39,366 nucleotides of DNA from a virus. Shown here piece by piece: positions 3 to 22,402 of this stretch (positions are counted from its first letter, which is position 1; every line of letters begins with the position of its first letter). Position numbers and translations under genes: made by a program. The notes below the pieces were generated by a model that saw only the letters and a list, made by a program, of their open reading frames with translations, was not told the origin of the DNA and ran no database searches. Location of the stretch: IMG/VR virus record IMGVR_UViG_3300046387_000284, positions 1-39,366 of that record; one strand, 5' to 3'.

Positions 3-3000
3 GACGGAAGTGCAAAAGCAAACGCAGATATTACTGCTGCTAGACCTTCATTTAGTAGATGCCCATTACCTACATCAATGATTGCAGGTAATATTGAGTT
101 CTATGTACCAAGAATAGATAAAATCTTCTTACACAAAGGTGGTGAGTTCATAGTATCGCAAGGTAATCCTTCAATCACTCCATCTCGACCAACTAGAATT
201 GATGATTCATTAGAGATGTTTGAATTATTCATACCGCCATTTACTAAAAATGTAAAAGACATTAAAGTAAGGTCTAAAGACTATAGAAGATTTACAATGG
301 CAGACATTGGTAAAATCAATCAAAGAGTCACAAACTTAGAAAGAGTCACAGCATTATCTTTATTAGAGAAAGATACACAATCATTACAAGTATTAGATGC
401 AGATGGTTTCGATAGATTCAAATCAGGTTTCTTAGTAGATAACTTTAGAGGTCACAAAATTGGTAATGTGTCTCATCCTGATTACAGATGTTCAATCGAT
501 ACTAAAATGGGTCATTTAAGACCTCAATCATATTCACAATTCTTTGATATTGATATGAACACATCACAATCATCTGGTTATGCAAAAACAGGTGACTTGA
601 TTACTTTACCATTCTCAGAGATTTCATATGTAGACCAAAACAAGGCATCAAGACATATCAATGTTAACCCATATCATGTCTTTGCTTTCGTAGGTAATGT
701 TAAGTTAACACCTGGAACAGACATATGGAACGATACAGAACAATTACCAGAAGTTAGAATTAACAGAGAAGGTAATTTTGATGCTGTACTTGCAGAAAAT
801 ACAAATTCACTTGGCACAGTTTGGAACAACTGGCAAACAACATGGGCAGGTGAACCAACGGTTGTAGAAACAGAACAACAATCATCTACATCAGGTTCAT
901 GGTCAGGCGACCCTGCTCAAGGTGGTGAATGGTTGCAAGGTACAATCATCTCAACAGAATTAACAGAAACACCTGAAATACAATCAAGAACAGGTGTCAG
1001 AACATCAGTCGTAGAAGATTTCGTAGAAACTAGAAATGATAGAGTGGTATCAGTTTCAGTAATACCATTTATTAGAAGTAGAGAAATTGAGATTGATGCA
1101 ACAAACTTAAAACCAAATACAAAACACTTTATTTACTTTGATGGTATAAGAGTTGATGGTTATGTAAAACCATATAGTAGTACATTCTCGCAAGATGGTG
1201 GTACTACAACTTCTTCTGGTGTTCAATCAGATGGAAACGGAAGACTTCGTGCATACTTTAATATACCAAACGATAGATTCCAAAGATTCCCTACAGGTCA
1301 AAGAGAACTAAGGGTGACATCAAGTGTAAATAATTTAAGTAATCCAGATTCAAACGCTACAGGCGTATATCAGGCGCAAGGTCTTCTTAACAGTTCACAA
1401 ACTGAAATTGTTTCAACTAGAAACGCAAGAGTTATAACTGAAAGATTGACTGGCGAAAGAACTATAATGAGAAGAGGTGAAAGATTAAATGTGGAAACAG
1501 ATGGTTCAACACCACCTCCACCGCCACCTCCTCCACCACCTCCGCCGCCTCCACCTCCGCCTCCACCGCCGGTAGATAGACCAATTGTGAGTCCGCCGCC
1601 ACCACCGCCGCCGCCTCCACCACCGCCACCACCTCCGCCGCCTCCGCCGCCGCCGATTGTGTTGCCACCTCCACCGCCTCCGCCTCCGCCGATAGCTCCG
1701 CCTTTGCCAGAGCCTGTACTACCGAGGCCGCCGATAGAGGATAGAAGACCTAGAAGAAGAAGGGCAATAGAAGAGAGAGGTTGGGGAGACCCATTAGCAG
1801 AATCATTCTTAGTAGAAGCAGATGGTGGTATGATGTTGACATCAATAGACTTATACTTTAAATCTAAGTCTACTAACCTTCCTGTTTCTATAGAAGTTAG
1901 AAATATGGTAAATGGTTATCCAGGTCAAACAGTATTGCCATTCTCTATAGTGACTAAGAATCCTTCTGATGTAAACATATCAGATGACGGTTCTGCTGTG
2001 ACAACATTTACTTTCGAATCACCAGTATATGTTGAAGAGGGTTCTGAAATGTGTTTTGTAATTTACTCTAACTCGAATGATTACGAATGCTTCATTTCTA
2101 GAATGGGCGAACAAGATTTAATTACTGGTCAAACAATATCAGGACAACCATATGCTGGTTCATTGTTCTTATCTCAGAACGCATCAACATGGACTGCTGA
2201 ACAAACAGATGACTTGAAATTCAATATGAAAGTTGCTAAGTTTGATACTACAGCACAAGGTCAAGTTGTGTTCGAAAATGAACATTTACCAGAAACTAAA
2301 TTACAACCAAACTCAGTAGAAGTTTATGATAGTCAGTCATTTGTTAGATTCTATAACTACTCGCATGGCATGTATGATACACAATCAAATGTTATCATAT
2401 GGGGTGTAGAGGGAGATAAATCAGGTTCAGCATTAACTGCAACAGGTAATACAGGTACAGGTGCTGCCGCTGGAACTTATGATAACAGTGGTTCAAATCT
2501 CTACAATGATGCTATCTACACTTTGAATGGTGCTAGCACAGGTAAAGATTTAATCATTCATAGTTTCGTAGTAAATGACGATGGCGATATAACATCTGTT
2601 CAAATTGCAAATCCAGGTGTTGGGTATGCAGTTGGCGATTCTATTACAATACCAAACTTTGATGGTTCTGGCGCTAATGCTACCATAACAATTCAGTCAG
2701 TTGGAGATACATTAGGTGGAATACCTGTCGATGCAATTAACGGACAGTATTCATCAATTACTAATTATGGAATAGATTCATTTAGTATAACACCCGATTT
2801 ATCAGCATACAATCTTTCATACACCAATGCAGTTCAATCAACAATAGGTGGTGGTGAAAATGCTTACATAACTAAAAACTTGTATTATGATGTTTTACAT
2901 ACTATGATACCTTCACTCTTGTTTAAAGGCACAAGCATGATTACAAGTGTAAGAAGAACAGGTATAAATGCACCTGATGAAGATTCACCTGCTTTAGATA

Positions 3001-3650
3001 CTTCATATGTTATGAGGTCAACAAACGACTTTATAACATTGAATGATAATGTATTCTTTGAGAGACCAAGTATCGTTGCTTCTTCGATTAACGAACAAGA
3101 AGAAGTCACAGGTGGTCCAACTACTAAATCATTTGAAGCGAGATTGCAATTACAAACAGTTAATCAAAACATATCACCTGTTATTGATGTTTCAACAATA
3201 GGGTGTATCGGAATCATGAACAGAATCAATGATATTGATTCGTCTGATGACTTAGCGACAGAACTTGCTTATGTAGCTTCAACTGAACCTGATGGTGACA
3301 ACAACGCAAATGTTTATATCACTAGAAAAGTTAATCTAAAGAATCCTGCAACTTCTTTGAAAGTAATTTCAGATAACTTTAGACCTGCAGGTACAGATAT
3401 CAAAGTCATGTATAAGATATTGAAGAATGACGAAACAACACCTATTGATGATTTAGGGTTTGAATACTTTAATACAACAGGTGGTCCAGATGTTGCAATC
3501 GAACAAGATGCAAGAAACTTTAAGGAATATGAATACACTGCTGACGGTCTACCAGAGTTCACAGGATTTGTTGTTAAGATTGTAAGTCAATCAGACAATA
3601 CATCAATTGTACCTCTAGTGTCAGCACTTAGATGTATCGCTCTCGCATAA
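3..3650 (+). CDS. Giant virion structural protein, DUF4815-type, 5'-truncated
   Basis: The frame is open from the left edge of the window with no stop, so the gene starts upstream; the first internal ATG is at 78. Residue numbers here count from that ATG. The N-terminal part (IEFYVPRIDKIFL, then INQRVTNLERVTALSLLE) matches my memory of the DUF4815 proteins of T4-like cyanophages. Three uninterrupted proline runs of 20, 21 and 9 residues lie at about 479-498, 506-526 and 530-538. They are followed by a Pro/Arg-rich hinge and a beta-rich region beginning WGDPLAESFLVEADGG, typical of large T4-like virion proteins (baseplate or fibre associated). The stop overlaps the next start (TAATG), indicating translational coupling. 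A virion role is well supported by family resemblance; the exact location in the particle is not known. Confidence 0.85.
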   Translation, partial: DGSAKANADITAARPSFSRCPLPTSMIAGNIEFYVPRIDKIFLHKGGEFIVSQGNPSITPSRPTRIDDSLEMFELFIPPFTKNVKDIKVRSKDYRRFTMADIGKINQRVTNLERVTALSLLEKDTQSLQVLDADGFDRFKSGFLVDNFRGHKIGNVSHPDYRCSIDTKMGHLRPQSYSQFFDIDMNTSQSSGYAKTGDLITLPFSEISYVDQNKASRHINVNPYHVFAFVGNVKLTPGTDIWNDTEQLPEVRINREGNFDAVLAENTNSLGTVWNNWQTTWAGEPTVVETEQQSSTSGSWSGDPAQGGEWLQGTIISTELTETPEIQSRTGVRTSVVEDFVETRNDRVVSVSVIPFIRSREIEIDATNLKPNTKHFIYFDGIRVDGYVKPYSSTFSQDGGTTTSSGVQSDGNGRLRAYFNIPNDRFQRFPTGQRELRVTSSVNNLSNPDSNATGVYQAQGLLNSSQTEIVSTRNARVITERLTGERTIMRRGERLNVETDGSTPPPPPPPPPPPPPPPPPPPPVDRPIVSPPPPPPPPPPPPPPPPPPPPPIVLPPPPPPPPPIAPPLPEPVLPRPPIEDRRPRRRRAIEERGWGDPLAESFLVEADGGMMLTSIDLYFKSKSTNLPVSIEVRNMVNGYPGQTVLPFSIVTKNPSDVNISDDGSAVTTFTFESPVYVEEGSEMCFVIYSNSNDYECFISRMGEQDLITGQTISGQPYAGSLFLSQNASTWTAEQTDDLKFNMKVAKFDTTAQGQVVFENEHLPETKLQPNSVEVYDSQSFVRFYNYSHGMYDTQSNVIIWGVEGDKSGSALTATGNTGTGAAAGTYDNSGSNLYNDAIYTLNGASTGKDLIIHSFVVNDDGDITSVQIANPGVGYAVGDSITIPNFDGSGANATITIQSVGDTLGGIPVDAINGQYSSITNYGIDSFSITPDLSAYNLSYTNAVQSTIGGGENAYITKNLYYDVLHTMIPSLLFKGTSMITSVRRTGINAPDEDSPALDTSYVMRSTNDFITLNDNVFFERPSIVASSINEQEEVTGGPTTKSFEARLQLQTVNQNISPVIDVSTIGCIGIMNRINDIDSSDDLATELAYVASTEPDGDNNANVYITRKVNLKNPATSLKVISDNFRPAGTDIKVMYKILKNDETTPIDDLGFEYFNTTGGPDVAIEQDARNFKEYEYTADGLPEFTGFVVKIVSQSDNTSIVPLVSALRCIALA

Positions 3651-5440: not shown

Positions 5441-7189
5441 ATGGCAGATAAAATATACATTAAACACAATTTAGGGAACTTTAATCAACCTTACATAGCA
5501 AGGTCAACAGTTAATGCTCAAAACCCTATAATCGCTCAGCAGAATAGAAGACAACCTAGAATTCTACAAGTTCCTAGCACTTATCAAAATAGACAACCGA
5601 GCACCTATCGTGACCCTGTAAATGCTCAGCAACCTAATATTAGAAATAAACAACATCCGTTTAATAGAAGTTATAGAACACCAAACGCAGTAAGTAATCA
5701 GGTTCCGTTTACATATCCTGCAATAGGTACTGTGCCTGCGACTTATCAACATCAGAGTCCAAGTATATACACTGCTCAGACTCAAATACCTAGTCAATAT
5801 CAACATCAGAGTCCTTATATTACTAGAAGAAGTTATACTTTCCAAAGTCCAGCGATTTATCAACATCAATCACCTTATACATTTCGTTCGCCAGGAACAG
5901 TGCAACAACCAGGTACTTATCAACATCAACAACCCGCTTCGTATGACCATAGAAGTCCTTATACTATACCTAAAACTTATAGTCATAGAACGCCTGTAAG
6001 TAGACAAAACTCTATTGCTAATCCTGTTATTAGAACTAGAGATTATCAGAATCCTGTAAATTATCAGAATCCTGTAATTAGAAATAAACAAAGTCCAGTT
6101 ATTGCACAATCACCAACGCCTGTAATTATAGCAAACGGTAATGTAGGAACGACATATTATTACGGCGCCGGAAGAAATCGTATTAATAGTCCATTAGCAG
6201 CTACTAGAGTTCCAAGTATAGTCACAGGAGCTCAAAGTCCTATGGCCCCCATGTCTTGGAATGCATTTGGACTTTATAATCATCAATCATCTACCGTCAC
6301 AACTTATAATTCGCAGGTGGAAATTGCATTTAGATTAGATTGTAATTGGATTAACGGCAGTCCTTATTTCAATCTTTGGGTAAAAAGAGGACCCACTGCA
6401 ACTTCATCTCCTTATTCAAATGGAAGTTATTTCGGTTATGATGAGATAGATACTTCAACCGTTATGGGGTCAACAGCAGGTTGGTATATTGCTTCAAATT
6501 GGGATTTACCATCATCAATTGTAAATAGTGGTAGTGGGTTTAAGATAAACATGATATTACAAAGTTGGTCAGGTTCTAATGGAACGGTTACAGGTATTCA
6601 ACCTGTGACATCGTTTGATTATTCACATACAAATGTCAGTTATGGTACCGATATAAGTTCATCAGTAGGAACTTCTGACCCAAGTAGTATTTGGACAGGT
6701 ACTGGTACAGGCGCTTCGGCCTTTATGACTAAAACTGTTAATTCAGCTAACTCTACCTTTAATAATGGTGCAACTGCTTCTACAATATCATATCCAGCGG
6801 ATCCAGGTGGTTCAGGCGCTCAAACAGCATCAGCATTATCATGGGGTGTAAAAACAACAGCAATAAGACAGACAGGTGGTAATACATCAACATTTACTAC
6901 TAGTTCAACTATGGATATAATTGTGCAAATAGAATTAGAAGACCAGAACACTTCTAGTTCAAATGATTTACCATATCACTTAATTAGAACAAATAATTTA
7001 TTACAAAGAGTCACAACAGGCGGAGGCGGCGGAGGCGGCGGTGGGTTCACCCCATTTACTCCTACTTTCCAATCTTTCTATCAAGAACCTCTTCAACAAG
7101 AAATAAATAGATTCACTAGCAGTAGACAAGAAATATCTCAACCGTTAGACCCAAGTGTCACGAATCCAGTTTTCAATGAGGGCTTCTAA
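5441..7189 (+). CDS. Pro/Tyr/Gln-rich repeat protein A with C-terminal globular domain
   Basis: This 582-residue protein has residues about 15-225 built from 6- and 8-residue units with a central proline (for example YQHQSPYT, NAQQPNIR, RSPGTV). Residues about 230-525 form a non-repetitive, Ser/Thr/Gly-rich, probably beta-structured domain that I do not recognise. A run of nine glycines (527-535) then leads to a tail ending PLDPSVTNPVFNEGF. The start follows the previous stop by one base and has no clear Shine-Dalgarno sequence, so translation may depend on coupling. The next repeat protein begins three bases after its stop. It is probably a fibre or adhesin-like virion protein, by position among tail-fibre genes. 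The repeats have few acidic or lysine residues and no cysteine, and are Arg-, Tyr- and Gln-rich. Confidence 0.75.
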   Translation: MADKIYIKHNLGNFNQPYIARSTVNAQNPIIAQQNRRQPRILQVPSTYQNRQPSTYRDPVNAQQPNIRNKQHPFNRSYRTPNAVSNQVPFTYPAIGTVPATYQHQSPSIYTAQTQIPSQYQHQSPYITRRSYTFQSPAIYQHQSPYTFRSPGTVQQPGTYQHQQPASYDHRSPYTIPKTYSHRTPVSRQNSIANPVIRTRDYQNPVNYQNPVIRNKQSPVIAQSPTPVIIANGNVGTTYYYGAGRNRINSPLAATRVPSIVTGAQSPMAPMSWNAFGLYNHQSSTVTTYNSQVEIAFRLDCNWINGSPYFNLWVKRGPTATSSPYSNGSYFGYDEIDTSTVMGSTAGWYIASNWDLPSSIVNSGSGFKINMILQSWSGSNGTVTGIQPVTSFDYSHTNVSYGTDISSSVGTSDPSSIWTGTGTGASAFMTKTVNSANSTFNNGATASTISYPADPGGSGAQTASALSWGVKTTAIRQTGGNTSTFTTSSTMDIIVQIELEDQNTSSSNDLPYHLIRTNNLLQRVTTGGGGGGGGGFTPFTPTFQSFYQEPLQQEINRFTSSRQEISQPLDPSVTNPVFNEGF

Positions 7190-7192
7190 AAC

Positions 7193-8002
7193 ATGGCACA
7201 GCAATATACAGTAAATACTAGGGCATCATTCCAGTCTTCTACGCCTGTACAATATGGTCACAGAACTCCTGCGACTACAAGACAGCCTGCTATTCAACCT
7301 TATGGTAATCAGGAACCATATCAGTCACCTTCTACTTACAGACACCCTGTAATTAGAAACTATGATATGAATAGACAACAACCTAATATTAGAAACTACA
7401 GAATACCTTTAACAAATGTTGATTATCAAACAACTGTAGATTATCAACAACCAACTAGTGGGGGTGTTCCTTTTGATAGAAATTATAGAACGCCTTTATC
7501 AGGTAGATATCCATTTGCAAATAGACAACCTAATATAAGAGATAGACAAACTCCTTCTCCTTATGTTGCTAATAAACAGAATCCGTTTATCAGAAATTAT
7601 CAGAACCCATACGCTTATCAGGCAAGTGATAGACAACCTACAATTTATAATGCTCAAATAGCAGGTTCTTATCAACATCAATCTCCTTCTACTTATCAAC
7701 ATAGAAGTCCGTTCACTTATCAAAATCCTGTTAATGCTCAGAATCCTTATATTGCAAATGCACAATCGAATCAACCTTATCAGATTGTATATCAAGTTGC
7801 ATATTCTTACAGAAGTCCGTCAACTTATCAGGTAACATATAATAGTCAAAGACCTATTACGCAGGTTGCAGAAGCAAAAGCAATATACATCAAAGACGCT
7901 GATGGTGTGGTAAAGAAAGTTGATAAGGCATATGTAAAAAATAATAGTACAGATGTAGAACAAATACATCAAACTATACCTTATCCTAATCTAAACACTT
8001 AA
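7193..8002 (+). CDS. Pro/Tyr/Gln-rich repeat protein B
   Basis: This 269-residue protein is almost entirely repeats of the same kind as the upstream gene (RNYRTPLS, NRQPNIRD, YQHQSPST, YQHRSPFT), covering about residues 10-225. The C-terminal 45 residues are different: AKAIYIKDADGVVKKVDKAY and onward, resembling the short alternating hydrophobic/basic modules (KAIYVK..) of other phage fibre proteins. A related stretch (DQIYVKTPTGWN) occurs at the N-terminus of the repeat protein at 14861. It starts three bases after the previous stop, with a weak GAGGG upstream. Function is unknown; it is likely a structural partner or shortened paralogue of the preceding protein. Confidence 0.72.
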   Translation: MAQQYTVNTRASFQSSTPVQYGHRTPATTRQPAIQPYGNQEPYQSPSTYRHPVIRNYDMNRQQPNIRNYRIPLTNVDYQTTVDYQQPTSGGVPFDRNYRTPLSGRYPFANRQPNIRDRQTPSPYVANKQNPFIRNYQNPYAYQASDRQPTIYNAQIAGSYQHQSPSTYQHRSPFTYQNPVNAQNPYIANAQSNQPYQIVYQVAYSYRSPSTYQVTYNSQRPITQVAEAKAIYIKDADGVVKKVDKAYVKNNSTDVEQIHQTIPYPNLNT

Positions 8003-14860: not shown

Positions 14861-16477
14861 ATGGCAACAGGCTCACAGAAGGTAAAAACACCCACAGGTT
14901 GGAATTCAACGCAAGGGGCATGGGTAAAAACAGGAACATCAACTTGGAAGGCAGTCGACCAAATCTATGTGAAGACGCCTACTGGTTGGAATAATGCTTC
15001 TGGTCAAGAATCGGTTCAACAACCGTATCCTTACATCGCAAACGCCCAAGAGCCTAATATTAGAGATGCTCAACAACCTTATCCTTATATTGCAAATGCC
15101 CAAGAACCTAATATCAGAGATGCTCAGCAACCTTATCCTTATATTGCGAATGCACAAAATCCATTTATTAGAAACGCTCAACAACCTGCGATATATCAGA
15201 ATCCTGTAAATGCTCAAGAACCTAATATTAGAAGCGCTCAAGAACCGAACATAAGGTCAGCACAAGAACCTAATATTAGAAACGCTCAAACACCGTTTAC
15301 ATATCAACACAGGTCACCTTTTACATATAGAGACCCAAGGGCATATAGAAACCCATTTACATATCAACATAGGTCTCCGTTTACATACAGAAACCCTGTA
15401 GATTATAGAGTGCCTTCGACTTATAATCATAGGTCTCCATCTACATATAGAGACCCAAGGTCATATAGGGTTCCGTTTACATATCAACATAGGTCTCCGT
15501 TTACATATAGAGACCCAAGGTCATATAGAGTGCCATTCACTTATAGTCACAGGTCTCCGTTTACATACCGAAACCCTGTTGGTTATAATATGCCGTTTAC
15601 TTACAATCACAGGTCGCCTTTCACTTATCAGTCTAGACAACCGAATAATGCAAGACAACCAGTTGCATACAGGTCACCATTTACATACAGAAACCCTGTA
15701 TCAGCACAACAACCAGTTGCATTTAGGTCGCCGTTTACATACAGTGCTAGATATCCTGCAAACGCTCAACAACCTGTGACATTCCAATCACCGTTTACAT
15801 ATAGTGCTAGATATCCTGCAAACGCTCAGCAACCGAACAGTGCAAGACAACCTATCACATATCAGGCAAGACAACCCATATATTTACCACCCCCTCCAGG
15901 AGGCGGCGGTTTCGGTTGTTTCCCTGCTGGTTCAATGGTCTGGTTGGCAGATGGTTCACATGTTGCTATCGAAACTATCGAAGTTGGGCAAAATGTTTGG
16001 ACTTGGAACGAAGAACTCAATACATTGGAAATCAATGCTGTCGAATACTGTATGAAACCAAGAGTTATTTCAGTATGGGATATTCACTTGTCAGATGGTA
16101 GAGTATTACAAACATCAGATGACCACCCAATTAAAATTGCAGGTGTCGAAGGTTGGGGTGCTTTAAATCCTGAATTAACTGTAGAAAGACACGAATGGTT
16201 GTCGAATGATATGACACATACATTAGAAGTAGGAACTAGAATATTCACTATGACTGATGCAGTTCTATACGGTAAAGAATCAGAAGAAGTAGTAATAGAA
16301 AAAATAGAAGAAAATGATGAAATGGTAGTGTATAACTTATCAGCGATTGCTAATACAGGTACATTCTTTGTGAACGGAGTTTTAGTGCATAACTACTATA
16401 ACCCAATATATTCACAGTATGAGTTTAACCAAAACAAAGACCCACTAGACCCTGGTTTTGGGTTTCTACCGAAATAG
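14861..16477 (+). CDS. Pro/Tyr-rich repeat protein C with C-terminal Hint domain
   Basis: The N-terminus (1-50) has two copies of VKTPTGWN. Residues about 55-345 are repeats: first an 18-residue unit with NAQEPNIRDAQQPYPYIA, then a 20-residue unit of three subunits (8+6+6, such as QHRSPFTY, RDPRSY, RVPFTY). A PPPP-GGGG linker leads to a Hint (hedgehog/intein) domain at about 353-511. Cys353 begins CFPAGSMVWLADGS, SDDH with His422 is the block-B site, and the domain ends GTFFVNGVLVHN with His510-Asn511. The next residue is Tyr512, not Cys, Ser or Thr, so cleavage is more likely than splicing. The 27-residue tail contains PLDPGFGF, echoing PLDP in repeat protein A. It is probably a self-processing fibre protein (inferred). 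Confidence 0.82.
   Translation: MATGSQKVKTPTGWNSTQGAWVKTGTSTWKAVDQIYVKTPTGWNNASGQESVQQPYPYIANAQEPNIRDAQQPYPYIANAQEPNIRDAQQPYPYIANAQNPFIRNAQQPAIYQNPVNAQEPNIRSAQEPNIRSAQEPNIRNAQTPFTYQHRSPFTYRDPRAYRNPFTYQHRSPFTYRNPVDYRVPSTYNHRSPSTYRDPRSYRVPFTYQHRSPFTYRDPRSYRVPFTYSHRSPFTYRNPVGYNMPFTYNHRSPFTYQSRQPNNARQPVAYRSPFTYRNPVSAQQPVAFRSPFTYSARYPANAQQPVTFQSPFTYSARYPANAQQPNSARQPITYQARQPIYLPPPPGGGGFGCFPAGSMVWLADGSHVAIETIEVGQNVWTWNEELNTLEINAVEYCMKPRVISVWDIHLSDGRVLQTSDDHPIKIAGVEGWGALNPELTVERHEWLSNDMTHTLEVGTRIFTMTDAVLYGKESEEVVIEKIEENDEMVVYNLSAIANTGTFFVNGVLVHNYYNPIYSQYEFNQNKDPLDPGFGFLPK
15017..15178 (+). repeat. 54-bp in-frame tandem repeat in repeat protein C
   Basis: Units begin at 15017, 15071 and 15125 (CAACAACC(G/T)TATCC and CAGCAACCTTATCC), giving an 18-residue period. 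Differences are mostly synonymous and the last unit is diverged. Confidence 0.8.
15301..15624 (+). repeat. 60-bp in-frame tandem repeat in repeat protein C
   Basis: Five consecutive units start at 15301, 15361, 15421, 15481 and 15541, with a partial sixth at 15601. Each encodes a 20-residue unit of the form (Y)QHRSPFTY-RDPRSY-RVPFT. Nucleotide identity between units is high, for example a shared ATAGAGACCCAAGG. Confidence 0.88.
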
Positions 16478-16494
16478 GAGTATGAGAGAGTAAT

Positions 16495-17427
16495 ATGTCA
16501 AATATACAATCACCCTACATTGCAGTTGGTCAAAACCCATTTACATTTAGGGCACCATTCACATATAGAGTTCCTTACATTGCTAACGCAAGACAACCTG
16601 TAGCATACAGGTCACCGTTTACATATAGAGTTCCTTATATCGCTAATGCTCAGCAACCGAATACATACAGGTCACCTTTCACTTACAGAAACCCTGTAAG
16701 TGCTCAACAACCTGTGACATTTCAATCACCGTTTACATTCCAATCACCTTATATTGCGAATGGTCAAGAACCTAATATTAGAAGCGCACAAACTCCAAGA
16801 GGATATCGTGTGCCTGTTTCTGCTCAAGAACCGAATATCAGGTCAGCACAACAACCTGCTGGTTACAGATTACCTGTTAACGCTCAAGAACCGAATATCA
16901 GGTCAGCACAACAACCTGCTGGTTACAGATTACCTGTTAATGCTCAAGAACCTAATATTAGAAACAGACAAACACCTGCAAAATATCAGAATCCTGTAAA
17001 TGCTCAAGAACCTAATATTAGAAACGCACAACAGCCCGCTGGTTATCAGCATCCTGTAAATGCTCAACAACCTAATATTAGAGATGCAAGGCAACCATCG
17101 ACTTATCAACATAGGTCTCCGTTTACTTACAATCATAGGTCACCGTTTACATATCAACACAGGTCTCCGTTTACATATAGGGACCCTGTAAGTTATAGAG
17201 TTCCATTTACATATCAACATAGAAGTCCATCGACATATGCAACACAAGGTCAGACACCGTTTACATATCAACACAGGTCTCCTTTCACATATGCAAGACA
17301 AGGTCAAACACCGTTTACCTATCAACATAGAAGTCCGTTTACATATGCAACACAAGGAAGAACACCAGTAATCCGTTGGGATGGTGATTTGAATCAAAAT
17401 TGGCCAGGTACTCCAGTGTCGTCATAA
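16495..17427 (+). CDS. Pro/Tyr/Gln-rich repeat protein D
   Basis: This 310-residue protein is made almost entirely of repeats: RAPFTYRVPYIANARQPVAY near the start, then 20-residue units GYRLPVNAQEPNIRSAQQPA, then QHRSPFTY units and 18-residue units YATQGQTPFTYQHRSPFT. There is no Hint domain; it ends GDLNQNWPGTPVSS. The repeats are nearly free of Lys, Asp, Cys, Trp and Met and are rich in Arg, Gln, Tyr, Pro and Asn. An AGGAG lies about 17 bases upstream of the ATG, and a short ATG-TAA frame lies between them. It follows the Hint-containing repeat protein by 17 bases and is probably co-transcribed. It is a likely partner fibre or a substrate-like extended protein; no known family is recognised. 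Confidence 0.75.
   Translation: MSNIQSPYIAVGQNPFTFRAPFTYRVPYIANARQPVAYRSPFTYRVPYIANAQQPNTYRSPFTYRNPVSAQQPVTFQSPFTFQSPYIANGQEPNIRSAQTPRGYRVPVSAQEPNIRSAQQPAGYRLPVNAQEPNIRSAQQPAGYRLPVNAQEPNIRNRQTPAKYQNPVNAQEPNIRNAQQPAGYQHPVNAQQPNIRDARQPSTYQHRSPFTYNHRSPFTYQHRSPFTYRDPVSYRVPFTYQHRSPSTYATQGQTPFTYQHRSPFTYARQGQTPFTYQHRSPFTYATQGRTPVIRWDGDLNQNWPGTPVSS
16801..17100 (+). repeat. 60-bp in-frame tandem repeat in repeat protein D
   Basis: Five exact-length units start at 16801, 16861, 16921, 16981 and 17041. The first two share their last 41 bases without change, suggesting recent duplication or gene conversion. Confidence 0.88.
17236..17370 (+). repeat. 54-bp in-frame tandem repeat in repeat protein D
   Basis: Units begin at 17236, 17290 and 17344 (TATGCAA(C/G)ACAAGG) with an 18-residue period; the third is partial. 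Confidence 0.8.
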
Positions 17428-17457: not shown

Positions 17458-19041
17458 ATGCAACAGATAGACCACGATATTATTCTAAAACTTTTTAGCG
17501 AAGACAGAGAAGACTGGAAAGAAAAACATTTCTATAAACACATCGGTTCGATGAATCTTAGTGAAGATTGGGAGCAATCTACAACATGGAAAAATGTTTC
17601 ATGGTTGTATGAAAACAGATTACCCAAACTCAAAAAGGTGACATGGGGTGATGTTTCAAAACTTCAAAAAGAAGGCAAACTCATAGGTTGGAATCAACTA
17701 CAATCTCAAGCATTCGGTTATCATTATTTTCTACCCCTAGGTTGGACTGCTAAACCTGAATTTCCAGCACCTGGTAAATCGGGTATGGATTTCATAAACA
17801 TCAATGGCGAATATGAAAATATTTGTAATCATGTAAAATTTGATGATGTAGATTATGAACCTGATGAAGGTAAAAAAGGCAATTTAGATTCAGTATACTA
17901 TCATGATGCTAAAGCACATTGGTTAGTAGATAGTATTAGAAGAGATGGTCTTTGGAATCCTATTCAAGGTGTTGTAGCACCAGCACATGATGATAAGTAT
18001 AAACTATCAATACACCCAGGTTCTGTAAGGTCACCTGTATTCGAATGTCTCGATGATGAATCTTTACAAATGTGGATATGGGACGATTATAATTTATTTG
18101 ATTGGATACCTGAATATACTTTACATACATTACTATCTGATTTATCTAATCACCCAAAAATGGGTCAAAGAGATATGGGTAAAAAGAATGTCTCTTTTGG
18201 TTATACTCATGGTTATATGGAGATATCTACTGAACTACAACAATTAACTTTTAGAAGTGATGTCTATGAATTCAATGAAAGAATCGCAAAAATGGCACAA
18301 GGTAAAAGAATAAACATCTACATTGGTTATGATTCTCGTCACAAAGAAATTGCAGAACTGAACGCATGGACAATGTTGAAAACTATTCAACAAGGTTTCG
18401 GTGGCGGTGATGTTCACGGCACAATGAAACATTGGATACCTGAAATCAAATTCTTAGATGTATCAAAGATACCAGAATATACTAGAGAGTATGCCCAACA
18501 ATCAACAGAGTTTACATACAGTCGTTTCTTAATACCACACCTAGAAAACTACAAAGGGTTTAGTATTTTCTTAGATGATGATATACTTTTTACCAAGAGT
18601 ATACTACCAATGTTCTATTTCTTAAATCCAGACGATGCAGTTGCATGTATAAAATATGACTTTGAAAAACATAACGATACAAAATTTGATGGCGAAAAGA
18701 ATGTAAACTATCCCAAAAAGTTATGGTCTTCGTTGATGATATTCAATAATGGTCATGAAGATTGTAAAAGATTAACACCAGATGTAGTTAATACACAAAC
18801 AGGAAAGTATCTACATCAATTTGAATGGACAGATAAAATATCTGATATTCCTCAACACTATATATTTACAGAAGGATATGATACAGACGAATCAAGTTGG
18901 CGTCCATCTGCTATACATTATACAAGAGGCGGTCCATGGATTGATAACATGGACACAACTAACATTGACAAACTTGACGAGTACGAAAGATTGTATAATA
19001 AGTGGTTGAATTACAAAAAACAAAATGATATAATGGAGTGA
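17458..19041 (+). CDS. ParB-like / GT-A glycosyltransferase fusion
   Basis: This 527-residue protein has two parts. The C-terminal half (from about 283) is a GT-A glycosyltransferase, likely GT8-like: INIYIGYDSRHKEIAELNAW, STEFTYSRFLIPHL, the metal/sugar-nucleotide motif Asp373-Asp374-Asp375 in FSIFLDDDILF, PKKLWSSLMIFNNGH and AIHYTRGGPWIDN. From memory, stand-alone versions of this pattern occur in marine bacteria. The N-terminal half has DSIRRDGLWNPIQGVV and KLSIHPGSVRS (about 182-192), reminiscent of ParB-like domains (SIRxxGLxxPI, then G.R.), as I recall from related phage proteins. It is the first gene of a late operon with oxygenase and sulfotransferase-like genes. Acceptor unknown: virion protein or host surface glycan. 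The GT assignment is firm; the ParB-like one is tentative. Confidence 0.82.
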   Translation: MQQIDHDIILKLFSEDREDWKEKHFYKHIGSMNLSEDWEQSTTWKNVSWLYENRLPKLKKVTWGDVSKLQKEGKLIGWNQLQSQAFGYHYFLPLGWTAKPEFPAPGKSGMDFININGEYENICNHVKFDDVDYEPDEGKKGNLDSVYYHDAKAHWLVDSIRRDGLWNPIQGVVAPAHDDKYKLSIHPGSVRSPVFECLDDESLQMWIWDDYNLFDWIPEYTLHTLLSDLSNHPKMGQRDMGKKNVSFGYTHGYMEISTELQQLTFRSDVYEFNERIAKMAQGKRINIYIGYDSRHKEIAELNAWTMLKTIQQGFGGGDVHGTMKHWIPEIKFLDVSKIPEYTREYAQQSTEFTYSRFLIPHLENYKGFSIFLDDDILFTKSILPMFYFLNPDDAVACIKYDFEKHNDTKFDGEKNVNYPKKLWSSLMIFNNGHEDCKRLTPDVVNTQTGKYLHQFEWTDKISDIPQHYIFTEGYDTDESSWRPSAIHYTRGGPWIDNMDTTNIDKLDEYERLYNKWLNYKKQNDIME

Positions 19042-19595: not shown

Positions 19596-20840
19596 ATGAG
19601 AATTCTTGTAATTGCTACCATTAGGTGTGGTGGAACTTATTTCGCCGAGTCGATTGCAAACAATCACAATTTAGATTACATACATGAACCTAAGTATAAT
19701 AACTTAGGTGCAACAAATAAAAATAATGTTGTTGTTAAAATTTTAACACATGCACCATTTACAGACATAAAAGAGATTGTCAAATACTCTAAAAACTTTG
19801 ATAGAGTTTATGTATTAGATAGAAAGGATAAAGAAGAACAATTAAGGTCTGTTTATTCTCTCTATGAATATCCAAAAGAATCTGCTCATAGTAGTTATCA
19901 ATGGGATGATTCTATGTTCGAAAAAGAGAATCCTAAAGATACAAAAGAAGAGTATGAATCATGGATAAATAAGTTTACTAAACAAGTAAATACAATTTCT
20001 TCTATCTTAAATAAAGATATTCTATATTATGAAGACTTGTATTACGGTAAAGTTGATTTAAAAGATATAAAGTTTATGCCAGATACATCTGAAAGATTAA
20101 GAAAAGAACCTATAAAGATAGAACATAGAGATAGTCCTTTCAATGTAAAAGAATTACCTTTAGATAGAGTTTATGTATTCGATAATTACTTAGAAAATTC
20201 TCTTTGGAAATTTATAGATAAACAATTAACTCAATCATCCACATGGGCAAAAACAAATCAAGTAAACTCACAACATAAAACAGGTTTACCTCACCATAGT
20301 TTTTGGGGAACATCTATTCTAAGAGCAGATGAACATGGTAATGGATACTTAGATTATGATGCAGGTTGGACTGAATCATCAGGCGCATTGTTTAGATGGT
20401 TCAATAGAAGAGTATGCACCGACTTTGGGTTCAAATGGAAAAGATTTCAGTATATGGGTACGAATAGTCAAACCCAAGGTCTAGAAGGCACAACTCATGC
20501 AGATTGCCAAAAAGATGATGAATGGAATTTATCATTTCTATATTATTACAATAGTTATTGGAATGAAGAATGGGGTGGTGATTTAAGATTTTATGATGAT
20601 GTTCCACAACATGGTCGTATGGGTCGTGAAGAACATATAAAGAATCATCAAATCGGAAGTGTTGAGTTTGTTCCGAATAGACTTATAATGTTTGACGGTA
20701 GAATACCCCATGGTGCAGATGCCCCTAATAGTAAAGCAAGATATATGGACAGAAGGTCTATTGTATTGAGAGGAGACGAAGTTCAACTAGTAGACGAGGA
20801 GGAAATGTTTAATGCCAACGATAGATTTTACAACATTTAA
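19596..20840 (+). CDS. Sulfotransferase-like / 2OG-Fe(II) oxygenase fusion
   Basis: This 414-residue protein has an N-terminal domain (1-~165) resembling PAPS-dependent sulfotransferases. It has a phosphosulfate-binding-like loop ATIRCGGTYFAESIA (about 7-21), followed by HEP and by VYVLDRKDKEEQLRSVYSLY, the expected 3'-phosphate-binding region. The C-terminal domain (~190-400) is a 2-oxoglutarate/Fe(II) dioxygenase: His301-x-Asp303 in THADCQKDD, distal His372 in GRIPHGADAP, and Arg386/Arg387 as candidate 2OG-binding residue. WGGDLRFYDD fits the prolyl-hydroxylase-like subfamily. There is no Shine-Dalgarno sequence; the ATG abuts the previous stop. The substrate could be virion proteins or host surface. 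The oxygenase call is strong; sulfotransferase is moderate. Confidence 0.8.
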   Translation: MRILVIATIRCGGTYFAESIANNHNLDYIHEPKYNNLGATNKNNVVVKILTHAPFTDIKEIVKYSKNFDRVYVLDRKDKEEQLRSVYSLYEYPKESAHSSYQWDDSMFEKENPKDTKEEYESWINKFTKQVNTISSILNKDILYYEDLYYGKVDLKDIKFMPDTSERLRKEPIKIEHRDSPFNVKELPLDRVYVFDNYLENSLWKFIDKQLTQSSTWAKTNQVNSQHKTGLPHHSFWGTSILRADEHGNGYLDYDAGWTESSGALFRWFNRRVCTDFGFKWKRFQYMGTNSQTQGLEGTTHADCQKDDEWNLSFLYYYNSYWNEEWGGDLRFYDDVPQHGRMGREEHIKNHQIGSVEFVPNRLIMFDGRIPHGADAPNSKARYMDRRSIVLRGDEVQLVDEEEMFNANDRFYNI

Positions 20841-21732
20841 TGAAGACTCGTTAAGAGATTTCAAACCTGTTTTAGCAAAGACATATGCACCTGATTGGTG
20901 GAAATCAGCAAAGGTTTGGAACACTGTTAGAGGTCGTCACATACAAACAATTCGTGCCTGCCCAGCTATGGACGATTGGTTGAAGTCTGGTTGGTATATA
21001 CTTGCAAATAGAGATATGGAAGTATGTTTTGGTTCAGATAAAGAAGATAAGAATAGTAAGATATCTTTTACACAGGACCCCGAATGGGATTATCAAAAAA
21101 GAAGAAGAAAAGGTCTACCAGAAGAAGGTGAAGGTCCACATGCAGCTGGTTTTCCTGTATATCATTCACCATCTCACCCATCAGAACAATTCTATCATTC
21201 ATTTCAATACTTACCTGATTCTGAATCACCTGTAAGAGATGCATTCAAAATGAGAAGTGCCTGGAATATCAAAACGCCACCAGGTTATTCAACCTTATAT
21301 CTCGACCCATTTTTATTTCAGAACGAACACTTTGCAGTATGGCAAGGTATCATAGATACAGATACTTTTCAAACAAACTATGATAACTCTCAAATCATTC
21401 TTTACCCAAGACATAGTAAAGATTTTATAATTAAAAAAGGAACACCTTTAGTTCAGATTATACCTTATAAAAGAGAAAATTGGGTCGCATCATATCAATG
21501 CATGACAGAAGAAAGTTGGCAGACTAGTCGTAGTCACCTTACAAACGAACATGGATATTCAACAATGGACGAATGGGGTAGAACAAAATATGACATGTCA
21601 ACGGAAAGAGCAAACCCAACATTAGGTCCATATAGAAACGAAGGTTATTGGCAAGAAAAGGGTAAGATGTTTAAAGAAGATGGACCGCCACCTGAATGTC
21701 CATTTCACAAAGGGGAAGATGATGACAGTTAA
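20812..21732 (+). CDS. Conserved phage protein, DUF6065-like
   Basis: This 306-residue protein begins 29 bases inside the upstream gene, with a strong GAGGAGG (20796-20802) nine bases before the ATG, so the overlap is real. Features are YAPDWWKSAKVWN, IRACPAMDDWLKSGWYI, TPPGYSTLYLDPFLFQN and IKKGTPLVQIIPYKRENW, and an acidic C-terminus PPPECPFHKGEDDDS. This pattern (drug-like 'CPAM.DWL.SG', 'KGTPL.QIIPY.RE') matches my memory of DUF6065 proteins, found in phages and some bacteria beside 2OG oxygenases. No catalytic motif is visible. The product is likely soluble. Operon position suggests a role with the neighbouring modifying enzymes; the function is not known. Confidence 0.68.
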   Translation: MPTIDFTTFNEDSLRDFKPVLAKTYAPDWWKSAKVWNTVRGRHIQTIRACPAMDDWLKSGWYILANRDMEVCFGSDKEDKNSKISFTQDPEWDYQKRRRKGLPEEGEGPHAAGFPVYHSPSHPSEQFYHSFQYLPDSESPVRDAFKMRSAWNIKTPPGYSTLYLDPFLFQNEHFAVWQGIIDTDTFQTNYDNSQIILYPRHSKDFIIKKGTPLVQIIPYKRENWVASYQCMTEESWQTSRSHLTNEHGYSTMDEWGRTKYDMSTERANPTLGPYRNEGYWQEKGKMFKEDGPPPECPFHKGEDDDS

Positions 21733-22402
21733 AAAATTATTTCCAACATATGTCTTCGAATGGGATTTTCTAGGAGAAGATAGCAACGAATTGATGACAC
21801 CTGAATATTTTGGATTACTTAGAGAAGAAATGGACGCTATGAGAAGAAGAGACCCTGTAGGTCGTAATGTGTCAAATGCTTATACAGGTTGGCAATCAAA
21901 CGATAGAGTTGATGATAATCCTATCTTTCAAAAATGTATTAGACAAATTAAGAAAAAGGTCAGAGAAGAGATTGCCCCAACATTGGGTATGAAGAATACA
22001 ACAGTCAATTTTCATAATGCTTGGGCGAACATTAATGATAATATGGCATGGAACAAACCACATTTACATAATGGATGTATGTATTCAGGTGCTTTCTACA
22101 TACACAGCGATGGTGATGAAGGTCATTTTGTAGCAGTAGATACTGATTATAAGTTTGTCGGAAATGTTCCTAGAAGTCAATCTGCTGTAAGAGAATCTTA
22201 TAGTGTTGAACCCAAAACAGGTTTTTTAATAATGTTTCCGAGTGGTCTAATGCATATGGTCGAACCAAATCCTACTCAGAAAGATAGATATAGTATTTCT
22301 TTCAATTTAGACTTCGATGGCGATAGAAATGAAGAGAATCATAACTACAGTTTATCATATAAAATCAAAGACGAATACGGAAATCTTGCAATTAACGAGT
22401 AA
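21722..22402 (+). CDS. 2OG-Fe(II) oxygenase
   Basis: This ~226-residue protein starts at the ATG at 21722, with AGGGG six bases upstream and a short overlap with the previous gene. An earlier in-frame ATG at 21680 lies deep in the upstream gene and would add 14 unrelated residues. It opens KKLFPTYVFEWDF, then has FHNAWANINDN, KPHLHNGCMYSGAFYIHS (His114, His116), GFLIMFPSGLMHMVEPN (His178) and DRYSISFN (Arg189). This is the layout of the putative 2OG-Fe(II) oxygenase family (PF13759) common in marine T4-like phages. These enzymes hydroxylate proteins or small molecules; substrates in phages are unknown. It is the last gene of the modification operon. Confidence 0.88.
   Translation: MTVKKLFPTYVFEWDFLGEDSNELMTPEYFGLLREEMDAMRRRDPVGRNVSNAYTGWQSNDRVDDNPIFQKCIRQIKKKVREEIAPTLGMKNTTVNFHNAWANINDNMAWNKPHLHNGCMYSGAFYIHSDGDEGHFVAVDTDYKFVGNVPRSQSAVRESYSVEPKTGFLIMFPSGLMHMVEPNPTQKDRYSISFNLDFDGDRNEENHNYSLSYKIKDEYGNLAINE

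Follow-up and report, generated by a model that had tools for sequence, protein, structure and literature searches.

A proline-repeat protein family of an uncultured T4-like marine phage clade: probable adhesion-fibre shafts with exchangeable ends, one of them predicted to process itself

Repeat genes within the tail-fibre and neck block

The window analysed here is the whole stretch of 39,366 nucleotides of IMG/VR virus record IMGVR_UViG_3300046387_000284 (positions 1 to 39,366). Its genes run from a VrlC-like gene through fibre genes, repeat genes and an enzyme block to neck, terminase, sheath, portal and capsid genes (Table 1). Four ORFs (5441-7189, 7193-8002, 14861-16477 and 16495-17427) have the motif [RQ]-x-P-x-x in common. 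These repeat genes are sited between the VrlC-like gene and the neck genes gp13/gp14, amid genes of PHROG tail and structural families, and are encoded in the tail-fibre/neck block, as a phage tail fibre would be. In pelagimyophages, the same VrlC-to-neck location is the host-recognition cluster (PMC7029224). The VrlC-like protein itself has a long poly-proline insertion (1510-1655, with DNA repeats of 3-18 bp) between conserved parts.

The original prediction concerned the last two of these ORFs, which it described as an unrecognised repeat family. Both are open (538 and 310 aa) and contain the units that it named, QHRSPFTY, RDPRSY and RVPFTY, and its claim that the same unit types recur in 5441-8002 was confirmed in both ORFs of that region. 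It overlooked the Hint domain, which resembles bacterial intein-like (BIL) domains, the terminal modules and the gene block.

Downstream of the repeat genes, the enzyme block consists, in this order, of a GT8-like gene, a gene of unknown function, a prolyl-4-hydroxylase-like gene, a second gene of unknown function and the 2OG genes. Repeats and enzyme block are both present in 17/17 gp13-seeded loci of the clade and both absent from all 22 loci outside it, some of these loci being repeats of one contig. Of the loci seeded with the glycosyltransferase, 72 extend at least 600 bp upstream, and in every one of these a repeat gene is adjacent to or overlaps the glycosyltransferase gene, with, in a few of them, an intervening gap of more than 400 bp or an apparent overlap that results from the choice of start codon. 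As the association is confined to one clade, functional linkage is inseparable from common descent. Among isolates, the best full-length gp13 match has 53.7% identity. The predicted late-promoter motif ATAAATA was not enriched.

Table 1. Features of the repeat genes and their surroundings in the window
Feature	Position	Strand	Remarks
VrlC-like protein gene	3-3650		open at window start
Class C repeat protein, 582 aa	5441-7189	+	MADKIYI N-terminus, array, globular C-terminal region
Fourth repeat protein, 269 aa	7193-8002	+	C-terminal module VKKVDKAYVK...VEQIHQTIP
Class A repeat protein, 538 aa	14861-16477	+	anchor-like N-terminal domain, array, poly-Pro/poly-Gly linker, Hint domain (BIL-like), short tail
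Class A N-terminal domain, ~46-47 residues (VKTPTGWN...WKAVDQIYVKTPTGWNNA)	14861-15001	+	kept across class A
Class A proline repeat array	15011-15889	+	6-/8-residue units, 54-/60-bp DNA repeats
Pro/Gly linker PPPPGGGGFG	15890-15916	+	Gly precedes Cys1 in 29/29 relatives
Hint domain, BIL type A pattern, residues 353-511	15917-16393	+	Pfam, Foldseek
Short C-terminal tail beyond predicted cleavage site	16394-16477	+
Class B repeat protein, 310 aa	16495-17427	+	almost entirely array, conserved C-terminus RWDGDLNQNWPGTPVSS
Class B C-terminal cap (WDG..WP.TP) and stop	17377-17427	+	R294, W295, D296, W303, P304 and P307 invariant
GT8-like glycosyltransferase gene adjoining class B	17458-19041	+	D373 and D375 of DDD stretch invariant
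2OG-Fe(II) oxygenase, prolyl-4-hydroxylase-like, PF13640 type	19596-20840	+	H301xD303...H372 invariant
Conserved gene of enzyme block, phrog_7084	20812-21732	+	unknown function
Second 2OG-Fe(II) oxygenase	21680-22402	+	PF13759 / TIGR02466

The repeat unit and its candidate fold

Tandem Repeats Finder located arrays with a 60-bp period at 15296-15567 and 16821-17082, and arrays with a 54-bp period at 15016-15187 and 17141-17357. These lie near the predicted positions, but the units are not exact in DNA as had been claimed (74-84% match). The predicted unusual composition was found in the two arrays, which are rich in P (13.8%), Q (11.4%), R (9.9%) and Y (9.1%) and poor in K (0.9%), E (1.7%) and D (1.4%). 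The predicted absence of Cys holds for the repeats only, as the class A protein has two Cys, one of which is the first Hint residue. Across homologues, Lys makes up 0.2% of array residues; a tie between this depletion and the Hint domain was rejected, array Lys being 0.22-0.24% with or without Hint.

In the four window arrays, 134 of 137 proline spacings are even (44/46, 40/40, 27/27 and 23/24), compared with a mean of 46% after shuffling, and spacings of 6 or 8 residues number 40, 37, 19 and 15, where shuffling gives means of ~3-5. As even spacing is so far above that of the shuffles, the regularity is not due to chance. Like units differ mainly at third codon positions (171/263 and 153/243), and comparison with a close relative gave dN/dS values of 0.086 for the class A array and 0.078 for the class B array. 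The third-codon bias and the dN/dS of ~0.08 reveal that the frames are translated, which answers the doubt on this point that the original prediction had itself raised, and this signature indicates that the arrays are under purifying selection. Concerted evolution of the arrays received weak backing, as the best match of a class A array was the class B array of the same genome in only 16/66 genomes.

Homologues encoded on virus contigs, 107 non-redundant proteins in all, show the same pattern: their proline spacings are even in 3976 cases and odd in 324, R or Q occupies the position at -2 from Pro in 97%, and Tyr, Ala or Arg that at +3 in 90%. Units of 6 and 8 residues are both present, as predicted, within a wider spacing family of 6/8/10, all even and mixed within one chain, and unit number ranges from 23 to 70 across genomes. 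The proline phase is richer in Pro, Gln, Arg, Ile and Thr, and the opposite phase in Tyr, Phe, Ala, Val, His and Gly; Tyr accounts for 0.0% of the former and 19.0% of the latter. This strict two-residue alternation, with two distinct faces, is characteristic of an extended beta chain, and constitutes a simple structural rule that is open to direct testing.

The extended fibre of the original prediction is supported by this alternation and by the site among tail-fibre genes, whereas the beta-solenoid that it also proposed is not: a regular solenoid of constant coil is disfavoured by the mixture of 6-, 8- and 10-residue units in one chain, and no confident monomer model was obtained. A polyproline-II helix, having three residues per turn, does not fit the two-residue alternation. 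AlphaFold2, with alignments of 24-36 sequences, predicted no structure in the arrays (pLDDT ~28-43, monomer mean 39). Prediction on a single chain is a poor test for interdigitated fibres, and this result speaks neither for nor against an inter-chain fibre. A triple-stranded beta-helix or another beta structure formed between chains would fit better than a solenoid. We prefer a triple beta-helix of mixed unit length, because each beta-helix turn takes on average 6 residues in T4 gp12 and 8 in gp5 (PMC3004832). The arrays resemble the shafts of gp12 (~6 residues/turn) and gp5 (VxGxxxxx, 8/turn) in these unit lengths and in belonging to a T4-like tail region (PMC3004832, PMC4576200). Unlike those shafts, to which they have no sequence match, they are centred on Pro, carry Tyr/Phe on the other face and mix unit lengths.

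Searches of PHROGs, NCBIfam and PDB sequences gave no family match for the arrays, and the unit strings were not found in the literature searched, in line with the claim of an unrecognised family. The exception was a marginal match to Pfam Cementoin (PF10511; cut-off 27.0), for which two repeat proteins scored 27.1 and 18.3 bits over low-complexity array. The xQxPxx hexads of the arrays do recall the trappin hexapeptides of Cementoin, which are transglutaminase substrates. However, the arrays are from phage rather than mammals and have no GQDPVK, no WAP domain and almost no Lys, and given the margin of 0.1 bit we judged the hexads to be convergent. A match in Ruminococcus phage phiRM10 (locus L149, 4001-4444) was unrelated, as it is antisense to annotated gp34 and consists of a minisatellite whose antisense frame mimics proline repeats.

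A tblastn search of the arrays against phage isolates, in which BLAST masks low complexity, returned no relevant match, and a motif scan of the stretches fetched from the nearest isolates found at most one motif per ORF, compared with 16-36 in the window. The host-recognition tail fibres of the pelagimyophages HTVC008M and Mosig, and of Melnitz, are encoded at the same VrlC-neck position, with 2OG oxygenase and GT8 genes in the region, but no repeat in the stretches examined. Judged by sequence, the arrays are a new kind of shaft within a known kind of protein, the phage adhesin fibre. With them, the tail-fibre repertoire known from T4-like phages would gain an undescribed shaft repeat, which occurs on scores of distinct contigs of marine viruses.

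Exchangeable ends and a BIL-like Hint domain

The homologues fall into classes that differ at their ends. Class A proteins join a KTPTGWN N-terminus and an array to any of three endings, class B consists of an array and a WDG...WPxTP cap, and class C has a MADEIYI-type N-terminus, an array and a tip; a further repeat type ends in KVKGVFVN...EKIHQSVP. The N-terminal domain of class A weakly matches the tail protein family phrog_9983 (E 0.045) and has a weak beta prediction. Among distinct class A ORFs, 27 end in a Hint domain, 18 in a globular tip and 31 in a short tail. The globular tip of ~150 residues is usually near-identical to that of the class C protein of the same genome (86-95% over 130 residues in eight comparisons), whereas tips of different genomes are 25-59% identical, one sister pair excepted. 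Receptor-binding fibres typically combine a constant shaft with ends that can be exchanged. The C-terminal globular region of the class C protein in the window had no family match, and family searches with the terminal tips yielded nothing usable.

In the window, the class A protein ends in a Hint domain with the landmarks Cys353, SDDHP (residues 419-423) and His510-Asn511, followed by Tyr. The Pfam models Hint and Intein_splicing match it at 1e-4 and 1.5e-4, short of their curated cut-offs, while 21 of 24 aligned relatives match Intein_splicing, at best with 1.2e-11. The structural model of the domain (residues 351-515, pLDDT ~90) is closest to BUBL1 BIL2 (6tmm/6y75) and the Clostridium thermocellum BIL (2lwy), with Foldseek E-values of ~1e-9 to 8e-9; it has 61 PDB matches at E<=0.001, and the matches listed are BIL, intein and Hedgehog structures. 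Across distinct Hint relatives, Cys1, Gly at -1 and T/S-x-x-H-P are each present in 29/29 and the terminal His-Asn in 28/29, L169 being the single member that lacks it. None has Cys, Ser or Thr at +1 (0/28), a position taken by F, G, M, Y, L, I, A, R or K. The domain thus shows hallmarks of a type A BIL in predicted fold and sequence: a Hint fold, an N-terminal Cys with a block-B His, and a C-terminal His-Asn without Cys, Ser or Thr at +1. This last feature, together with a location towards the C-terminal end of a variable fibre rather than in a conserved protein, led us to reject a canonical intein.

Known type A BILs (2lwy; 6tmm, 6y75) share these sequence features and the predicted fold, and they too are located in variable proteins (PMC4031507, PMC7765530). 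The domain in the window differs from them in ending a phage fibre protein, after poly-Gly and with a short tail beyond, and in its low identity (17-24%), its activity being a prediction. As far as the searches made here show, the end of a phage fibre is a new place for a BIL. Type A BILs form an N-terminal thioester and cleave by Asn cyclisation, ligation via a free amine being possible but cleavage dominating; a Magnetospirillum BIL with Tyr at +1 did not splice in its native form (PMC4031507). Tetrahymena BIL2 was reported to join its N-extein, a ubiquitin-like protein, to lysine (PMC8616854). With an intact active site and no Cys, Ser or Thr at +1, the class A domain should cleave itself at the poly-Gly junction, a prediction to which transfer adds a novel possibility.

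The Hint module of these fibres has been gained, lost or swapped. Its state changes 6 times on the glycosyltransferase tree, at least 4 of these changes being forced, and the virus contigs L299 and L300 are 95% identical in glycosyltransferase and 43% in Hint (57% of Hint positions differ), which bespeaks a recent domain exchange.

Probable adhesion fibres and competing explanations

We consider it probable that the repeat proteins are paralogous adhesion-fibre shafts with exchangeable ends, one of them self-processing, in an uncultured T4-like marine phage clade. In each, [RQ]-x-P-x-x units would make up a shaft between an end domain typical of its class and a C-terminal module that can be exchanged, and the shaft would form an extended beta structure of several chains, most likely a trimer, on the virion. 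In the class A protein, Hint would form a thioester at Gly352-Cys353 and cleave after Asn511 by Asn cyclisation, so that the mature fibre would have a poly-Gly end, which might be free or be linked to the short tail or another amine. A predicted self-processing intein-like domain would then stand at the end of a phage fibre, the normal site of adhesion specificity. One variant, which we regard as a long shot, is that Hint acts as an ATP-free conjugator, transferring the poly-Gly end to an amine either of another protein in the virion or of the host surface. If the thioester were transferred in this way rather than hydrolysed, the fibre would be attached covalently without other enzymes or ATP.

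The arrays could instead be intrinsically disordered spacers between terminal domains, which would agree with their low pLDDT throughout, with a composition rich in Pro, Gln, Asn and Arg and with few large aliphatics, and with a unit number that varies from 23 to 70 between genomes. We think this rather unlikely, as neither a two-residue phase kept in more than 100 homologues (3976:324; Tyr 0.0% versus 19.0%) nor a dN/dS of 0.08 is expected where length alone is selected, and as single-chain prediction tests interdigitated fibres poorly. It is less likely still that the repeat proteins are made in the infected cell for its surface or matrix, off the virion. Such a role was proposed for the curli secretion cluster of pelagimyophages (PMC7029224), which HTVC008M has as well, and the adjoining glycosyltransferase and oxygenases would suit it, but the repeat genes are embedded in the tail-fibre/neck block, their N-termini have no secretion signal evident by eye, and their module swaps resemble those of phage receptor-binding proteins. 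For Hint, the patchy distribution with 6 changes on the tree and the lack of His-Asn in L169 might betray a decaying or selfish intein relic without a role in the fibre. This is quite improbable: the ~160-aa domain has no match to a homing endonuclease family, its catalytic positions are all kept in 28/29 relatives although pairs differ at up to ~70% of positions, and its site is constant, following Gly close to the C-terminal end of a protein that evolves fast, rather than lying in a conserved enzyme.

The enzyme block raises the question of whether the arrays are adhesives akin to hydroxyproline-rich, cross-linked glycoproteins, modified by the adjacent prolyl-hydroxylase-like enzyme and the glycosyltransferase. 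The PF13640 enzyme has an intact HxD...H, the GT8-like gene immediately follows the repeat gene in each of the 72 loci that reach far enough upstream, and the repeats are rich in Pro and Tyr and reach a marginal Cementoin score (27.1 versus 27.0). However, HTVC008M and Mosig show no repeats in the stretches examined although each has four 2OG oxygenases upstream of gp13, so that prolyl hydroxylation of the repeats stays a weak idea; the GT8 enzymes of these phages have been ascribed to host LPS modification (PMC7029224), and the arrays have almost no Lys for a transglutaminase-type linkage. As the association of repeats with oxygenases is complete but confounded with phylogeny, we retain it only as a weak rival and hold the adhesive to be highly unlikely. 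Within the preferred reading of adhesion fibres, the adjoining oxygenases and glycosyltransferase might still modify the fibres, on slender evidence.

Several proteins of the block have further features. The oxygenase at 19596-20840 has an extra N-terminal domain of ~180 residues (19596-20130; MRILVIATIRCGGTYFAESI...), sulfotransferase-like by eye, that is absent from aligned relatives. The N-terminal half of the GT8-like protein (17458-18300) had no family match and contains a conserved YYHxAKAHWL...SIxxxGLWxPIQG, ParB-like by eye. The protein encoded at 20812-21732 has relatives in the haloarchaeal tailed viruses HF1, HSTV-2 and HRTV (22-27% identity). One match in a bacterial genome, L330, proved to be a phage contig of 121 kb that had been binned into a Sphingobacteriales MAG; it has the same gene block and a Hint-like class A ending, with the order of classes B and A swapped.
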